This document shows positions 7,789-20,127 of a DNA stretch of 34,483 nt, piece by piece. A model generated the notes under the pieces. That model was given only the letters and a program-made list of their open reading frames with translations, was not told where the DNA came from and ran no database searches. The position numbers and the translations under genes were made by a program. The stretch is from Gammaproteobacteria bacterium (GTDB lineage: Bacteria; Pseudomonadota; Gammaproteobacteria; Chromatiales; Chromatiaceae): the NCBI GenBank assembly GCA_007135625.1, contig SLIM01000216.1, positions 1 through 34,483 on the forward strand, read 5' to 3'. Every line of letters begins with the position of its first letter. Position 1 is the first letter of the stretch.

Positions 7789-8154
7789 CTACTCGGATGC
7801 TGCCTCAACCGCACTCTCCAGCGTCTCTTCCGCAGCCTCCATCCCAGCCTCCGCAGCCTCTAGCGCACTCTCCGCAGCCTCCATTCCGGCCTCCGCAGCC
7901 TCCAATAGACTCTCCTCCGTTGGCAGCGCATAGCCGGTCTCGCTCGATGCCTCGCCCATCCCCTCCACGGCGGCCTCCTCCTCAAGGATCGGCTCCGCAA
8001 CCGGAGTGACCACGGCGGGTTGCTGCTCCGCAATCGGGGTCACTACCGGCGGTGGGTCTGACGGCGGCGGAGTGGTGGTTGGCTCCTGATCGCAGGCCGC
8101 AATCACAAGGGCAAAAGAGGCGACAGCTAGCAGACGGTACGTTGGGTAGGGCAT
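7789..8154 (-). CDS. Small lipoprotein with Pro-rich linker and repetitive Ala/Glu helical C-terminus
   Basis: Signal/lipobox ASFALVIAAC; PPPSDPPP linker; repeats LEAAEAGMEAAESA / LEAAEAGMEAAEET. AGGAG ribosome-binding site upstream of ATG. Confidence 0.75.
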   Translation of the reverse strand: MPYPTYRLLAVASFALVIAACDQEPTTTPPPSDPPPVVTPIAEQQPAVVTPVAEPILEEEAAVEGMGEASSETGYALPTEESLLEAAEAGMEAAESALEAAEAGMEAAEETLESAVEAASE

Positions 8155-8580: not shown

Positions 8581-8772
8581 ATGACTACCAACACAGAGAA
8601 AAAGTTACCAGCAGCTCGCCTGCAGCGAGCCATTGAGGGATTTAACGGGTTTTGTGAGGAGGATCTGGAGTGGCATCGCAACTCTGGGGAATCTTTTGAT
8701 GAATCGGTGTTTTCCGAAGCCCGTGAACTCGTCATGCGTAAGCTAGAGGCACTCCAGGAGGAATCTATATGA
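8581..8772 (+). CDS. 63-aa acidic small protein, stop overlaps start of the downstream ATPase (ATGA)
   Basis: ORF MTTNTEKKLPAARLQRAIEGFNGFCEEDLEWHRNSGESFDESVFSEARELVMRKLEALQEESI; 4-nt overlap with next CDS suggests translational coupling. Confidence 0.7.
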   Translation: MTTNTEKKLPAARLQRAIEGFNGFCEEDLEWHRNSGESFDESVFSEARELVMRKLEALQEESI

Positions 8773-10664
8773 TCATTACCCGCATCGCGGCAACCAATGC
8801 CTTCAAATACAATCACTTGGAGATAGATGACATCCCTGCGCAAGGGGTCATTGCCGTTAGCGGCGACAATGAGTCAGGCAAGAGTTCGGTCGGCGAGATC
8901 ATCTGTTTCGCACTATTTGGCCAAACCTACTCACTGCCGGAAGAGGAGATCGGCAAGGCCATCCGCTGGGGTGAACTGAGCTGTTCGATGAGCGTATGCT
9001 TCGCGATTGACGAGGATCGGGAGTATGAGGTCTATCGTCACCTTGATGAGGATGGCAAAGCGGCCGCCCGACTGACCGTGCGCGGTGAGAGCGAACCGCT
9101 CGCAGTCGGTATGCAGCCGGTTACCGAGGCGGTCATCAAACTGGTCGGCTTTGACTTTGACGAGTTCCTGGAGACCTTCTACCTCGCCCAGCGCGAAATC
9201 ATCAAGCCCCAATCCCAAGGCGATGCGATTAAGTCGATTGCCGGACTCTCCCTGCTAGAGCGGGTGCGCGAAAAGCTGGAGGATGAGAACGACAACGAAG
9301 GCTCCGATGCCGAGGAGCTGCAACAGCGTATCTCTGAGATCGGCACCGAGCAGGCCGAGCTGAACATCGACCACACCCTGCTGAAGCGCTTCAAAGAGCA
9401 GCGCAGTGGCGTACAGCAGGCGCTGGAGCGGGTACAGGAGGCGAGCAAGGGGCTGGAGGGAGCCGCCAACAACTACCGCGAGGCGGTCGAAAGTGGCGAT
9501 TCTGGTGCCGGTGGCGGGGTCATCTTCCTGCGCCTGCTCACGCTCCTCGCCGCTGTCGGCTTCGGCCTTCTCTGGTACCTGATGGAGCGGATGCCCGATG
9601 CCAACATCACCCAATCCCTCGCCCCCACTCTCGGTGAGCTAGGCGTGGGGAGCGTTCATCTGCTGACCGGCGGCAGCATTGCGGCCCTGCTCTTTATCAT
9701 CTTTCTGTTCGTCGGCGGCTCCTCCAAAGCACGCGCCGAGCGTCTGAAAACCCCGGCGATTGCGGTCGCTCGCAAGCTGCGTGATGGCTGGGCGATTCAG
9801 GGCGAGGGGAGCAGCGGGGAGACGACCTCTCTGCGACAAGAGCAGATCGAACGGGTTAGCGAACGGATGGAGGGCGGACTCGCTAGCGTCGAAGAGATGG
9901 ATCCGCTGGTTGAGGCCGAAGTCGCCCGCCTCGCCCAGGTTATCGCCGCCGAAAAGGAGAAGGTCGGTGCGCTGGACAAGGCGATCAAGCAGGAGCAGTC
10001 CCGCCTGAACAGCGCCAGCGTGCTACAGCAAGAGCAGCAGGAGCTGGAGGCCAAGCTGGCACAGATCGCCCGCAATGCCGAGCTGCGCGATGTCGCCCGC
10101 CACCTGCTCAACGGGGCCGAGAAGCATGTCATCAAGCGCTTCAACGCCGACCTGCGGGAGTTTGCCGCCCGCACCCTGCCGCTCTTCACCAGCAACCGCT
10201 ACGAGCACCTGCGCGTCGAAGGGGATCTGAACGTGCGGGTCTTCTCCAACCGCAAGCGCGACTTCATGGATCTCGCCGAGATCTCCGCCGGCACCCAACG
10301 GCAAATTATGCTCGCCCTGCGCCTTGCCTTGGCCAAAGAGCTAGCCGACACCACCGTCGTTGGTCGTCAGTTTATGTTCCTGGATGAACCCTTCGCCTTT
10401 TTCGACCAGACCCGCACCCGCGACACCCTAAAGGTGCTGCCCAGTATCAGTGAAAAACTCTCACAAGTCTGGGTCGTCAATCAGGAGTTCAGCGACGAAC
10501 ACCCGTTCGCGCTGCACCTCTGCTGCAAGGATGAGAACGGCGAACTGGTAGGCCACGGCGAGCAATCACCCAAAATCAGCAGTAGTGAAGCGCCGCCCGC
10601 TGCCCGCCCCTCCCAACCGGAAAGCTCCTCCCAACCGGAAGAGGAGAGCAGCACCTCCTTATAG
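8769..10664 (+). CDS. Rad50/SbcC/YhaN-like SMC-type ATPase with two central transmembrane segments
   Basis: Walker A VSGDNESGKSSVGEI, Q-loop-like ETFYLAQREI, ABC signature-like EISAGTQRQIMLALRLALAK, Walker B QFMFLDEPFAFFD; hydrophobic segments VIFLRLLTLLAAVGFGLLWYL and GGSIAALLFIIFLFVGG inside the coiled-coil region. Confidence 0.85.
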   Translation: MIITRIAATNAFKYNHLEIDDIPAQGVIAVSGDNESGKSSVGEIICFALFGQTYSLPEEEIGKAIRWGELSCSMSVCFAIDEDREYEVYRHLDEDGKAAARLTVRGESEPLAVGMQPVTEAVIKLVGFDFDEFLETFYLAQREIIKPQSQGDAIKSIAGLSLLERVREKLEDENDNEGSDAEELQQRISEIGTEQAELNIDHTLLKRFKEQRSGVQQALERVQEASKGLEGAANNYREAVESGDSGAGGGVIFLRLLTLLAAVGFGLLWYLMERMPDANITQSLAPTLGELGVGSVHLLTGGSIAALLFIIFLFVGGSSKARAERLKTPAIAVARKLRDGWAIQGEGSSGETTSLRQEQIERVSERMEGGLASVEEMDPLVEAEVARLAQVIAAEKEKVGALDKAIKQEQSRLNSASVLQQEQQELEAKLAQIARNAELRDVARHLLNGAEKHVIKRFNADLREFAARTLPLFTSNRYEHLRVEGDLNVRVFSNRKRDFMDLAEISAGTQRQIMLALRLALAKELADTTVVGRQFMFLDEPFAFFDQTRTRDTLKVLPSISEKLSQVWVVNQEFSDEHPFALHLCCKDENGELVGHGEQSPKISSSEAPPAARPSQPESSSQPEEESSTSL

Positions 10665-10776: not shown

Positions 10777-11289
10777 ATGAAAAGACTCCTTTTTCTGTTA
10801 CCGGATGTCCGCTCCTGCAAGCGTATCGTAGCCGAGCTGGAACAGGCGGGGATCTCCCCCCGTCATCTCCACGTTATCGGCGGCATTCAACACTCACTAG
10901 AGGGACTCCCCGAAGCGAGTCTGTGGCACAGAACCGAACTGGCACGCGGTCTGGAGTGGGGAGTTAGCCTTGGCGGGGTCGCCGGGCTACTCGGTGGGCT
11001 GCTTGCGGTCAGTTTTCCACCCGCAGGGGTGATTGTCGGTGGCGGAGCGCTACTCGCTGGTGCTGCTGCTGGGGCCGGTTTCGGCGGTTTGGTTGCCGCG
11101 CTCACCAAGGGAAATGAACACAACCACCAACTGGATGAGTACCGCAGCGCCCTGATTCAAGGCTATCTGCTGGTGATTATCGAACTGCACAGCGCCCAAC
11201 TTCCCGTCGTTCGGCAACTGCTCCTACAGCATCTCCCTGACACCTCGATCCAGGTCGACATCCCCAATGCCCTACCCCAAAATCCTTAA
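10777..11289 (+). CDS. Membrane protein with glycine-zipper-like central hydrophobic region (DUF1269-like)
   Basis: MKRLLFLLPDVRSCKRIVAELEQAGISPRHLHVIG... then GVSLGGVAGLLGGLLAVSFPPAGVIVGGGALLAGAAAGAGFGGLVAAL. Confidence 0.75.
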   Translation: MKRLLFLLPDVRSCKRIVAELEQAGISPRHLHVIGGIQHSLEGLPEASLWHRTELARGLEWGVSLGGVAGLLGGLLAVSFPPAGVIVGGGALLAGAAAGAGFGGLVAALTKGNEHNHQLDEYRSALIQGYLLVIIELHSAQLPVVRQLLLQHLPDTSIQVDIPNALPQNP

Positions 11290-14823: not shown

Positions 14824-17800
14824 TTACTGATGACCAATCTCCAAGCGATAGGTAATTTCAACAATCGGCAGTTCCCACCGCTCCGCTTGGCAGCGTTGAC
14901 GGTAGCCATCTTTCTCATCATCTTTTGTTCGTTGCAGCATCGCGATGACCTCAACCGATTCGACTCCCTGCCAGTGGTTGCAGAGTTCTGCGCCGGGCTG
15001 CCCCGGCTCTCGGTGGTTGGCGAGGCGAGCGATGGGGATCTGCTGGTGAAGCAGCAGCAGACGGTTGCCGTTACGCCCAGGGGAGAGCCGGGTACCGCTT
15101 TCGACCGTTCGCAGTGCCGCATGAATCGGGTGGTGCGGTGGATGACTTCCGGCGTAACCGAGGTCGAAGGCAGCGCTACCGAGAAACTCCCGCCTTAACC
15201 CTTTGAGCGCCGCTGGGTAGCTGTTATCAACCGGGGCGTGGCGAGTGATGAGAAAATCCCCCTGTAATTGGCCAATAAAAGGGTTGTCACCGTCGTTGCG
15301 ACATAAGATATAGAGGGTTTCACAGGCGCGTGACAGGGCGACATAGCAGAGCCGTCGTTCGCTTTCGTTGGCGCTATTCCAGTCGCCATCAAGTAGCCAC
15401 AGATGGCGAAACTCCATTCCTTTCACAGAGTGGATGGTGCTGAGAAAGATGCCGTCGCCGAGACGTTGCTGGCTGCGCTGGTCGTTGAGCGCCTCGTAAA
15501 GGTAACTCTCTAGGTGAATCGCCGGTTGTGGTAGATCGCCGCTCTGCCTCTGCCACTGCGCCAGAATACCGTGCAAGTTGCCCCACCAAGGGTTGCGTGC
15601 GGCAGGGGCGAGCTGTTGCAGCGCCTGGCTAGCGGAGATCTGTTTGCCGCGTTGGCACTTGAGCCAGTCGAGCAGATGGCGGTGCTCGCGAATCCGCAGG
15701 GGGGAGGGATACTGCTTGGAAGGCAGGGCATAGCTGACCTCCACTCCCTCGCTCGCCAGCAGGATGCGGAGTGCGTCGAGCTGTCGCCAAGTGCGCGCAA
15801 GAACGGCACAATCACGCCCCACAAGCTGCGGGTCGAGCTGCTTGAGGCGGTGCCACTCATCCACCACCGCGCGGGCCTGGTGGTAGCCGTCGCGAACTTG
15901 CAGGCACTGTACCCGCCCGTCAAACATCGCCGGCTGCTGCTGCCAGCGTCCCCCCGGAGAGTCATGGCGACGGCTGCGGTTGCGCTGAATCGGTTGTTCC
16001 GCTTTCATGCGATCGCGGTTGGCGGCGATCAGTTGGTTGGCAGCGGCGATAATGTAGGCGGTAGAGCGGTAGTTCTCCACTAGGTAGCAGGTCTCTGCTT
16101 GATAGTCGCGGGCAAAGCGGCGGATGAATTCGACATTGGTGCCGTTAAACTCGTAGATATTCTGGTCGTCATCACCGACCGCAAGGATCGAGAGGCGGCG
16201 TTCAGGATCCTGTTGAGTCCGCCCGGCAATGGCAGATACCAAGCGGTATTGGCGCTCATTAATATCTTGGTACTCATCCACCAAAATGTAGCGAAAACCG
16301 GCCAGTAGCCGCTCCCGCAGCTCGTCACTCTCGATCCCCAGGATCTCGTGTTTCCCCTCCAACAGCTCGGCAGCCTGGTCAAGCAGTTGATCAAAGTCGA
16401 TCTGCTGCTGCTCGGCATCGACCAAAGAGCGCCCCAGCAGCCGCATGGCGAGTCCGTGGTAGGTCTGTACCGTGACCCGGCGACTACCACCCCCCCCGAC
16501 CAAGCGATCTAAACGCCGCGCCAGCTCATCGGCAGCGTTGCGATTAAAACTGAGCAGCAGAATACTTTCAGGAGGTTGCCGCTGCACCTGCAACAGCCAA
16601 GCGCAGCGGTGGACGACGACCCGGCTTTTGCCCGCTCCAGGCCCGGCCAGGATCAGCAGATTACGTTCGGTCGGAGCGGTTACAATATCCTGCTGCTGCG
16701 GATTGTTGAGTTGCTCCACAATCTTTCGGTAGGCGCTATCACTGATCGCACGGGTCAACATCTCCTGATTATTGGGAAAATAACGCTGAATAAAGCTCTG
16801 TTTATCCTCAGAGAAATAGGCGGTGACCAAGCGTAGCGCCTGGCTGATTTTCAGCGTCCCAAGCTGGGCGTACTGGTTCATTACGTGGAGCTGAAAAATC
16901 TTTTCCAAATAGTGGTTGGCGAGTGGTTGGTAGTGCTGCAACCGGTAGCCCTGCCCCTTGCGCTCGGGAAGGATACGAATCGTCATTGCGGCATGAAAGA
17001 CGGCCAACCCCTGTTGCAAGATGATCACCTTCTGCTCATGCAAAAAGTTTAAGGCACGCTCAACCGCCGCCAGTGGATCCCGCAGCCGCGCCCGTAGCAG
17101 CAGATCCTGCTGCAGCGCACGCAAAATATCCTCCATCGCAAAAGCGACCATCAGGTTACTCCCTTTGGTATCTTTTGGGATCTTACGCAAGAGCTGCTCC
17201 ACGATCACCTGGGCAACCGCGTTGCGCAGCTCGGCAGTCTCCACCAGCGCCCGCCAACTGCGCCGCAGCAGACGTAACTGATAGTGGTCACGCCGACTAT
17301 AGCGCAACGCAATACTCCCCTGCCCCCCGGCCAGACCGCGCCCATCCTGGGCCAGGCTATAGAGCAGATCACGCAGCCGTTGCGGCAGACTCTCATGGCC
17401 ACTGTTCAAGAGCTGTTGGTTAAGGTGACGCAGCGACAACTCGTGCCACTCCCCCCCCTCCGCGTCGGGGGCCGTCTCGCGCAGCGCCTCAAACAGCGCC
17501 TTTTCCAGGATGATCACTGCCGCTAAACGTCCGCGTGAGTGGCCCTTCGCCTCGCGATGAACAAACGCAGTAAGCTGCATCGACTTACTGATCAACCCCT
17601 GCCCAGCCATGTCGTGGAGGGTGCGTAACACCTGCTGGCCGGGAGTCAGGCGACCCTTTACCTCTTCCGGTGTAGCATGAAAGGGGGCCAGTTCGGCCAG
17701 ATCATCGGCACTGAACCCCGTATCCGGGGAGCTGTTCAGCAGCCATTGCAAAATCGCCAGCCAGCGCTGCTGCTGCTGTTGCGAGAGGTTGCACCGTTCG

Positions 17801-20127
17801 ACCTTGCGCTGCGCCTCTTCCAGCGAGTGGACTAGCGGTCGCCCTTGGAAGATTTGGGTGTAATTCTGGTTTTGCTCCACAAAACCGGCCCGCTCCAACC
17901 AAGCGACAGCACTGCGCACCTTGGTATCAGCTCGTGTATCATAGGGATCGAAATGGCCGGTCAGCGCCTGGCTACGCAGCAGTTCACCGGTGGTCAAAAC
18001 TACCTCCTGGTCACCTTTGCGCCGCGCCGCACGTATCCCCCGCAAGATTGCCACGATGTCACGGTGACGCAGTTGTGACCGGCCACCAAGGCGAAACTGG
18101 ACTTCGACATCCGCTTCGTCGTAGAGCAGAATACACTCCGCCGTGCGCTGATCCCGCCCCGCCCGCCCCGCCTCTTGCAGGTAGTTTTCGAGCGACCCCG
18201 GAATATCGGCATGGATCACCAGTCGCACATCCTCCTTATCAATCCCCATCCCAAAGGCATTGGTTGCACAGATCACTTGCACCCGATTGGCCATAAACGC
18301 CTCCAGAATCTCGCGTTTGCGCGGAGCCTCCAGCCCGGCATGAAAGACCGCCACAGACCACCCCTGACTCCCCAAAGTAGCGGCCAAATCTTCACACTTT
18401 TTGCGGGTAGCACAGTAGATCAACGCCACCCCCTCGACCAGCCGCTCTTGCAGCAAGGCATGGATCCAGCCACTCCTAGCCATCTCCGCGACCGGCTCCA
18501 CCGCAAAGCACAAATTGTCACGCTGCACCTCGGCGCGATAGAGGGTCAACTCCAGCCCTAGGGTAGTGCGAAAATAGGCGGCAATCTCCTCCGCTACATC
18601 TCGCTTGGCAGTAGCGGTAAAGCACTGCACCGGCGGGATCGGCACCCCCTGCTGCTGGGCAATCTCCCTGATTCTTCTCCCCGCATAGAGGTAATCAGGA
18701 CGGAAATCGTGTCCCCACTTGGAGAGGCAGTGCGCCTCGTCAAAGACCCAGCAACCGATCTCGCGCTGGCTAATTACACGATTCAGGGAGTGATTACGCA
18801 ACTGTTCGGGAGAGAGGTAGAGCAGCGCAATATCCCCCATGCGTACCTGCTCCAGGATCTGTCCCCGCTCCGGTGGGGTCAGCAGCCCATAGAGTGCGCC
18901 GACATGGTGAGCGCCGCTCTTGTGGCGCAGGTTATCGACCTGATCCTTCATCAGCGCTTGCAGCGGCGAGATGATTAGGGTCAACAGCCCGCGCCGCTGG
19001 TAGCGAATGAGTGCCGGGAGCTGGTAACAGAGCGATTTGCCACCACCCGTGGGGAGAATCGCCAACAGCGACTGCTCCCCCATGGCATCAGCGACGATAC
19101 GCCGTTGCAGGCTTTCCCCCGTAGCGGGATCAAGTGGTTGCGGGCGGAAGGCGGCAAAGCCAAAGTAGCGTTGCAGTTGCCCCTCAGGGTGATGAACCTG
19201 GCAGCAGTAGTGGCACTGCGCAGAGCCGCAGGGGATATCCCGCAACTGGTGAAGGATGAGCGCAACCGCTGGAAACTGGTGGCGCACCCAGCCGGGCAGT
19301 ACCGAGTTCCCACCAGCAACACCGAGCCAAGCCGCGCAGTAAGCGAGTGCGATACGCTGCTCGCGGTCGGGCAGATAGCGCCGTACAACGGCATCAAAAC
19401 GACTGCTGCAAACCTCCCCCGCCCACTGCTCGCGCAGGTTGCGGTAGGCCTCCGCCGCACCAATCTGGGCGACTCCGAGAGCGGCAAAGAGGGCCACCAA
19501 CCCCGCCCCCATGCGATCGCTCTCCAAGCAGTAGCGGATCAGCGCAAGGCGCTGCGGAGACTCCACCTGCTGCTGTGCAAAGACGTTCCACTGATCACGC
19601 AACAGCTCTGCCGTCAAACGAGCATCGGCGAGAGGGTCGCTTAGGCTATCACGCACCAGCTTATACTCTTTTACAAGCTTATGATAGGGGTTTTGTGGAA
19701 AGGCTAACGGTGAGAGGTAAAGGGTATCAATCACCGGTTTGTGGTACAGCTCCAACGCCACCAGATGGTTACGCAGGTGCGGCAAGTCGTGGTGCAACAC
19801 ATTGTGACCCAACAACCGCTGCGCCGGTGCGCAAAAGGTATCCAATGCATGCAGCACGTCCGATCCAAGTCGCCCCCGGCGGTGAAACTCCCGCCCCCCA
19901 AGCAGCGCCCCGATAGCGTAGATCTCGCCACGCGCATTGATCTCCAGATCGACCACCGCCGTCTCATCCAGAAAGCGCTCCAATGCCGCAGCGGGCAACA
20001 CCTCTCCCCCACTCTCTAGCGTACAAGCACCCTCTACCTCATTCCGCACAGGCCCAACCTCATCATAATTCAATGGATGGTAACAGCAAGGGCATACGGC
20101 CTTCCCCCCGAGCCGACAAGACCTCAT
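14824..20127 (-). CDS. 1767-aa fusion: N-terminal DEDD-type exonuclease-like domain, central RecQ SF2 helicase, C-terminal UvrD/PcrA-like SF1 helicase
   Basis: Exonuclease-like AVVDLEINARGEIYAIGAL / LLGHNVLHHDLPHLRNHL / DPLADARLTAELL; RecQ Walker A LPTGGGKSLCYQLPAL, VFDEAHCLSKWGHDFRPDYL, NYLQEAGRAGRDQRTAECILLY; UvrD ILAGPGAGKSRVVVHR, ILVDEYQDINERQYRLV, VGDDDQNIYEFNGTN, ENYRSTAYIIAAAN, STIHSVKGMEFRHLWLLDGD, RLCYVALSRACETLYIL. Confidence 0.93.
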   Translation of the reverse strand: MRSCRLGGKAVCPCCYHPLNYDEVGPVRNEVEGACTLESGGEVLPAAALERFLDETAVVDLEINARGEIYAIGALLGGREFHRRGRLGSDVLHALDTFCAPAQRLLGHNVLHHDLPHLRNHLVALELYHKPVIDTLYLSPLAFPQNPYHKLVKEYKLVRDSLSDPLADARLTAELLRDQWNVFAQQQVESPQRLALIRYCLESDRMGAGLVALFAALGVAQIGAAEAYRNLREQWAGEVCSSRFDAVVRRYLPDREQRIALAYCAAWLGVAGGNSVLPGWVRHQFPAVALILHQLRDIPCGSAQCHYCCQVHHPEGQLQRYFGFAAFRPQPLDPATGESLQRRIVADAMGEQSLLAILPTGGGKSLCYQLPALIRYQRRGLLTLIISPLQALMKDQVDNLRHKSGAHHVGALYGLLTPPERGQILEQVRMGDIALLYLSPEQLRNHSLNRVISQREIGCWVFDEAHCLSKWGHDFRPDYLYAGRRIREIAQQQGVPIPPVQCFTATAKRDVAEEIAAYFRTTLGLELTLYRAEVQRDNLCFAVEPVAEMARSGWIHALLQERLVEGVALIYCATRKKCEDLAATLGSQGWSVAVFHAGLEAPRKREILEAFMANRVQVICATNAFGMGIDKEDVRLVIHADIPGSLENYLQEAGRAGRDQRTAECILLYDEADVEVQFRLGGRSQLRHRDIVAILRGIRAARRKGDQEVVLTTGELLRSQALTGHFDPYDTRADTKVRSAVAWLERAGFVEQNQNYTQIFQGRPLVHSLEEAQRKVERCNLSQQQQQRWLAILQWLLNSSPDTGFSADDLAELAPFHATPEEVKGRLTPGQQVLRTLHDMAGQGLISKSMQLTAFVHREAKGHSRGRLAAVIILEKALFEALRETAPDAEGGEWHELSLRHLNQQLLNSGHESLPQRLRDLLYSLAQDGRGLAGGQGSIALRYSRRDHYQLRLLRRSWRALVETAELRNAVAQVIVEQLLRKIPKDTKGSNLMVAFAMEDILRALQQDLLLRARLRDPLAAVERALNFLHEQKVIILQQGLAVFHAAMTIRILPERKGQGYRLQHYQPLANHYLEKIFQLHVMNQYAQLGTLKISQALRLVTAYFSEDKQSFIQRYFPNNQEMLTRAISDSAYRKIVEQLNNPQQQDIVTAPTERNLLILAGPGAGKSRVVVHRCAWLLQVQRQPPESILLLSFNRNAADELARRLDRLVGGGGSRRVTVQTYHGLAMRLLGRSLVDAEQQQIDFDQLLDQAAELLEGKHEILGIESDELRERLLAGFRYILVDEYQDINERQYRLVSAIAGRTQQDPERRLSILAVGDDDQNIYEFNGTNVEFIRRFARDYQAETCYLVENYRSTAYIIAAANQLIAANRDRMKAEQPIQRNRSRRHDSPGGRWQQQPAMFDGRVQCLQVRDGYHQARAVVDEWHRLKQLDPQLVGRDCAVLARTWRQLDALRILLASEGVEVSYALPSKQYPSPLRIREHRHLLDWLKCQRGKQISASQALQQLAPAARNPWWGNLHGILAQWQRQSGDLPQPAIHLESYLYEALNDQRSQQRLGDGIFLSTIHSVKGMEFRHLWLLDGDWNSANESERRLCYVALSRACETLYILCRNDGDNPFIGQLQGDFLITRHAPVDNSYPAALKGLRREFLGSAAFDLGYAGSHPPHHPIHAALRTVESGTRLSPGRNGNRLLLLHQQIPIARLANHREPGQPGAELCNHWQGVESVEVIAMLQRTKDDEKDGYRQRCQAERWELPIVEITYRLEIGHQ

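Follow-up and report, generated by a model that had tools for sequence, protein, structure and literature searches.

The cassette described here pairs a gene for a small acidic protein with a gene for a Rad50-type ATPase that is predicted to be anchored in the inner membrane. It lies in a 34,483-nt stretch of DNA (contig SLIM01000216.1, positions 1 to 34,483; hereafter the window) from a gammaproteobacterium of the Chromatiaceae. The reading we favor, with a probability of roughly 0.45, is that the two proteins form one complex, in which the ATPase, anchored in the inner membrane, works with a small helical subunit to keep chromosomal DNA at that membrane or to sense it there. The computed basis of this reading is the gene pair and its conservation, the ATPase motifs, the membrane segments, a structural model of the head and arm, and a locus that has no SbcD/YhaO-type partner. 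The motifs and hydrophobic segments of the window ATPase are far beyond what chance would produce.

The small gene (8581..8772, + strand) was delimited by its open reading frame and by family alignments, and encodes a 63-aa acidic protein. Its stop codon and the start codon of the ATPase gene share the sequence ATGA (8769..8772, +), which suggests that translation of the two genes is coupled. The ATPase gene (8769..10664, +) encodes a 631-aa member of the Rad50 superfamily with a predicted central membrane hairpin of two segments. A first-pass annotation of the window had described this gene arrangement, and its coordinates and lengths agree with those given here. In one homologous locus (L042:9321-9323, - strand; genome G058), the small gene lies in the reading frame of the ATPase gene, with a single TAG directly before the ATG.

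The ATPase is built as expected for the Rad50/SMC superfamily: an N-terminal lobe with Walker A and a C-terminal lobe with signature and Walker B, with an antiparallel coiled coil between them. The head motifs named in the first-pass annotation are all present and nearly all invariant in alignments of 40-67 homologues. In Walker A, GDNESGKS (aa 32-39; 8862..8885, +), residues G32, N34, E35, G37, and K38 are invariant in both alignments; the ABC signature EISAGTQRQ (aa 504-512; 10278..10304, +) has invariant E504, S506, G508, T509, Q510, R511, and Q512. The Walker B and D-loop segment FMFLDEPFAFFD (aa 535-546; 10371..10406, +) begins with Walker B proper, FMFLDEP (aa 535-541), and its invariant residues are D539, the catalytic Glu540, and D546. 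The head belongs to Pfam family AAA_23. Its closest PDB entries by sequence are Rad50 (3e-17 with the single sequence, 3e-37 with the family profile), and Rad50 is also the best match in a fold search (1e-15; Mre11-Rad50 entries 5dny, 3auy, and 3av0). In our own reading of the alignment, a conserved Gln572 (VNQEF/VAQEF) appears to occupy the position of the Rad50 switch histidine. Superfamily membership also suggests that the heads bind DNA.

The AlphaFold model of the ATPase (pLDDT 86.9, from a 67-sequence alignment) places the first head lobe at residues 1-158, followed by outbound coiled-coil helices at aa 160-243 (160-198 and 204-243; 9246..9497, +), a transmembrane helix at 248-274, and a short helix at 279-290. 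A helix at 295-342 then contains the second membrane segment, and the inbound coiled-coil helix (aa 374-473; 9888..10187, +) returns to the other head lobe, and the final 30 residues are disordered in the model. At 0.15 nm per residue, the 84 residues of the outbound arm correspond to about 12 nm, and arms in the 740-760 aa forms of the ATPase are probably longer.

Two hydrophobic segments had been noticed in the middle of the protein, and both stand up to scrutiny. Kyte-Doolittle hydropathy peaks at 2.23 for segment 1 (aa 250-268; 9516..9572, +) and 2.42 for segment 2 (aa 298-316; 9660..9716, +), and between them is a polar loop of about 27-29 residues (9573..9659, +) that is predicted to be periplasmic. 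The pair is kept in homologues: when the central region is scanned at KD>=1.5, exactly two segments are called in 134 of 145 ATPases, and the others comprise nine with a single segment, one with three, and one lacking any. Hairpin and loop length (~27 residues) are likewise conserved. Seven control proteins drawn from the same or related genomes (two SbcC, two YhaN, two other metallophosphoesterase-linked ATPases, and one SMC) have no hydrophobic segment, and a CPxCG hook is found only in SbcC among them. Segments and topology were called by hydropathy and a charge rule rather than by a trained topology predictor. Lysine plus arginine counts average 4.9 before the first segment, 1.3 in the loop, and 3.5 after the second, so by the positive-inside rule both ends of the ATPase are predicted to be cytoplasmic (N-in/C-in). 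The zinc hook of SbcC/Rad50 proper is not a feature of the family, with a CxxC in the middle region of only 7 of the 145 ATPases. These seven (L044, L062, L069, L070, L142, L147, and L150) have hydrophobic segments as well. An inner-membrane-anchored ATPase of Rad50 type, with a predicted hairpin replacing the zinc hook, is well supported computationally.

The small protein is 63-65 aa long across its family, with an average net charge of -6 and no hydrophobic segment. F21, E28, F39, and A47 are nearly invariant in alignments A1 and A4, and the core pattern of the family is F..YC.AE.ERR.NSGE.FDE..F..A..L...L. AlphaFold models the protein as a soluble antiparallel helical hairpin (helices at aa 11-35 and 41-62; pLDDT 81), a fold supported by the top within-protein covariation pair, 29-45. 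It matches none of the families in Pfam, NCBIfam, or PADLOC, and a structure search with the model gave no match with E below 3. Matches of its sequence profile to a Cullin-3 helix in the PDB are weak and were judged to be chance. Covariation between the ATPase and the small protein scored no better than shuffled pairings. A candidate contact at ATPase aa 99-130 appeared with the full amino acid alphabet and was lost in a reduced-alphabet rerun; because neither the rerun nor the shuffled-pair control supported it, we assign no contact site.

The small ORF is conserved in sequence and position across homologous loci, and the precedence of the small gene, first seen in the window, proved general: it lies directly upstream in 145 of 150 ATPase loci (104 non-redundant pairs), usually with the 4-nt overlap. 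Among 112 related genomes, 46 have an ATPase match, which is the cassette ATPase in 45; the other (G034) is a weak partial match. All 40 loci fetched from related genomes have an upstream small ORF, which is adjacent or overlapping in 39 and about 97 nt away in the exception, G008. Named genomes have the small gene in 79 of 80 loci, the sole exception being truncated by a contig end; a script found the 4-nt overlap in 71 of the 80, and three more had been missed by its motif filter. Every named host with a classification is a gammaproteobacterium, and Sedimenticola, Candidatus Thiodiazotropha, and symbionts of gills or tubeworms make up many of them. A single-sequence search of named-genome contigs gave no match.

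Independent profile searches of 369 genomes of the class found the small protein in 33 and the ATPase in 36, with all 33 among the 36 and the genes adjacent (Fisher p ~ 5e-44, relatedness ignored). At the cut-offs used, three genomes thus have the ATPase only and none has the small gene only. On inspection, G371 proves to have a divergent but clear small ORF that overlaps by 4 nt, a second (G172) has a possible one, and in the third (G288) none is visible. Both G172 and G288 (L194 and L195; family f105) have long, divergent ATPases of the cassette type, and the small partner is either missing or strongly altered.

The cassette extends beyond the class. Among 399 genomes sampled from the phylum, 33 that lie outside the class encode a longer ATPase, mostly of 740-800 aa. 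An upstream small ORF, mostly with ATGA, is found in 15 of 16 loci fetched from the other class (14 by profile, one divergent), and in the sixteenth the script did not locate the ATPase start; most of these 16 loci have the two hydrophobic segments. The cassette as defined here comprises a gene for a small helical hairpin immediately upstream and an ATPase with two membrane segments at the tip of the arm, and the window has both. Judged by sequence comparison, the gene pair is an ancient, conserved cassette of at least two classes of Pseudomonadota.

Neighbors of the cassette vary with lineage. One lineage has the gene order prfB, lysS, HDOD, ygfZ, RNase II-like gene, small gene, ATPase, 170-aa protein, and HrpB helicase (the first four named from their sequences, without family search). 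In the window, genes for a CNNM/CorC protein and an FHA protein (Pfam) lie upstream, and the gene for the 170-aa protein is followed by those for a KdtA-like transferase and a spermidine synthase (the last two named from sequence). Frequent neighbors differ again in the other class. Across all these contexts, the two-gene core alone is retained. RNase II, the HrpB helicase, and the 170-aa protein were considered as obligate partners and ruled out as lineage-specific.

Two other reading frames of the window deserve mention. A short ORF at 7789-8154 (-) has a lipoprotein-like N-terminus (ALVIAACDQ), repeated EAAEAGMEAAE units, and no Pfam match. A 1767-aa ORF at 14824-20127 (-) is a RecQ-like DEAD helicase fused to a UvrD/REP helicase (Pfam), and its N-terminus looks, by eye, like a DEDD 3'-5' exonuclease.

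A constant two-gene core among changing neighbors suggests a self-contained housekeeping module. The ATPase gene is single in nearly all genomes that have it, no match was found in 50,697 phage records, and plasmids gave only partial 30% matches, on three plasmids. Together with the lineage-varying neighbors, these results point to a standalone chromosomal module that is probably inherited vertically.

In the favored reading, both genes would give rise to one complex, with translational coupling supplying the small subunit in roughly matched amount. Two ATPase heads, which we infer to dimerize, would close on ATP in the cytoplasm, and the coiled-coil arm of each (~84 residues, ~12 nm) would end in the two-helix membrane hairpin. 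The small helical protein would probably pack against the neck or head, in the manner of the Rad50-binding segment of Mre11 or the end of a kleisin, and determine when the heads engage. Most likely, such a complex would act as a housekeeping factor that keeps chromosomal DNA at the membrane or senses it there, and it would do so without its own nuclease.

More tentatively than this reading, the cassette may represent an undescribed class of SMC/Rad50-type complex, found in at least two classes of Pseudomonadota, in which a membrane hairpin takes the place of the dimerizing tip, DNA is tethered about 12 nm or more below the inner membrane, and a 65-aa subunit akin to a kleisin or Mre11 peptide exerts control. 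To our knowledge, well-studied Rad50 and SMC complexes are all soluble, with arms closed by a hook or hinge. The literature searched gave no Rad50- or SMC-like ATPase with membrane segments, and nothing relevant on YhaN with SbcC or COG4717. If true, the proposal would tie an SMC-type ATPase directly, at the molecular level, to the inner membrane, in a family that has a tiny obligate subunit and no nuclease. How bacteria keep their DNA at the membrane, an old question, could then be tested in hosts that can be cultured, such as Sedimenticola.

The same architecture could instead serve an envelope machine, in which the ATPase cycle drives the hairpin and periplasmic loop through the short arms, in the manner of ABC mechanotransmission, with the Rad50-like head serving solely as the engine. 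The hairpin with its loop of conserved length and the short arms are compatible with this, as is the gene that often comes next, which encodes a 170-aa membrane-type protein with a glycine zipper (10777..11289, + in the window). This frequent, non-obligate third neighbor follows the cassette in the same orientation in 25 of 134 loci, and a homologue is present in 19 of 45 cassette genomes compared with 13 of 67 others (p 0.01, relatedness ignored); in the window, L047, and L048 it adjoins the cassette without RNase II and HrpB neighbors. We nevertheless consider an envelope machine unlikely: the heads are nearest Rad50, unlike those of ABC transporters or MacB/FtsE-type transmitters, and the cassette has neither a periplasmic domain nor a constant envelope partner gene.

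An anti-phage or anti-plasmid system akin to Lamassu or MADS, in which the ATPase would be the sensor and the hairpin would provide the effector or anchor, is suggested by PADLOC models, of which mad3 matches all 67 ATPases scanned and LmuB matches 58 of them. In Lamassu, too, an SMC-like ATPase of about 650 aa, LmuB, is encoded together with a small protein (PMC10586767). The Walker B glutamate is generally replaced by glutamine in LmuB (PMC10586767), whereas Glu540 of the cassette ATPase is invariant. Other results also make defense a distinctly unlikely role. No LmuA-type effector, MADS-type cluster, or other system gene recurs beside the cassette, the neighbors are of the housekeeping kind, and the loci compared give no sign of a defense island. 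The near neighbors in the window have no Lamassu match, and against the mad models only the spermidine synthase responds, with weak similarity to mad2. The mostly single-copy, chromosomal cassette, which is not matched in phage, also fits poorly with this role.

A role in RNA turnover or RNA quality control at the membrane, together with the RNase II-like enzyme that frequently precedes the cassette, is improbable. In 57 of 134 loci a gene of the RNase II family is found directly 5' of the cassette in the same orientation, for example at L032:4870-6693; the median distance is 261 bp with the small gene included. A gene for an HrpB-type helicase follows the cassette in 48 of 134. The association is confined to one lineage, and the neighbors differ in the window, in several further families of the class, and in the second class; local synteny accounts for it. 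Bacillus YhaN also adjoins an exoribonuclease, YhaM, and the RNase II-like gene may be a parallel to that arrangement.

A shortened SbcC or YhaN that works with a metallophosphoesterase from another part of the genome, as the Rad50-type head and YhaN-like SxGTxxQ signature might suggest, is a very improbable identity for the ATPase. SbcD exceeds the cut-off in only 11 of 45 cassette genomes, several cassette genomes carry separate SbcC or YhaN genes, and the window genome has no SbcD match. That genome is 90% complete and has five metallophosphoesterase genes, none matching the SbcD model. The first-pass annotation had seen no nuclease gene beside the ATPase, and this holds widely: no SbcD/Mre11- or YhaO-type gene was found in 134 cassette loci and 16 loci of the other class. 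SbcD/SbcC is present as a separate pair in G058 and G003 (two loci inspected), and YhaN/YhaO in G007 and G043. SbcC with a distant SbcD was rejected as an explanation. Mutual exclusion of the cassette and SbcCD is not seen either (SbcD in 11 of 45 cassette genomes vs. 8 of 67 others, p 0.12).

The first-pass annotation had named YhaN-type proteins as the closest membrane-containing relatives known to it; the comparisons do not bear out YhaN as the closest relative. The cassette profile scores at least 338 bits on members and at most 48 on other proteins, reaching 48 on SbcC and 1.5 on local YhaN; PF13514 (AAA_27) has no match to the window ATPase at E<=1; and in a tree of the heads the cassette ATPases form one group (SH-aLRT 93) separate from SbcC and YhaN. 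With the coexistence of YhaN/YhaO, the profile and tree rule out a plain YhaN orthologue. Since, in addition, the small ORF and the pair of hydrophobic segments are conserved in homologues, the architecture of a Rad50-like ATPase tethered to the membrane and accompanied by an obligate small partner has good computational support.

Among known systems, LmuB and mad3 are weak relatives of the cassette ATPase. The cassette differs from Lamassu LmuB/LmuC in having no LmuA effector, in keeping the Walker B glutamate, in its membrane hairpin, and in its chromosomal housekeeping context. The PADLOC models for Mad3 and Mad8 of MADS are the best PADLOC matches for the N- and C-terminal halves of the ATPase; the cassette has one full-length ATPase and no recurrent MADS genes around it. 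YhaN (PF13514, with YhaO) is a Rad50-like ATPase with an SxGTxxQ-type signature, as in the cassette ATPase, whereas the two local YhaN proteins are 1154-1162 aa long, have no membrane segment, and are encoded beside a YhaO-type gene. With Rad50/SbcC the cassette ATPase shares the split ABC ATPase head and coiled coil. It differs from them in its SxGTxxQ signature in place of LSGGE, in a locus without a metallophosphoesterase gene, in a predicted membrane hairpin instead of the zinc hook, in its short arms, and in its obligate partner of 63-65 aa.
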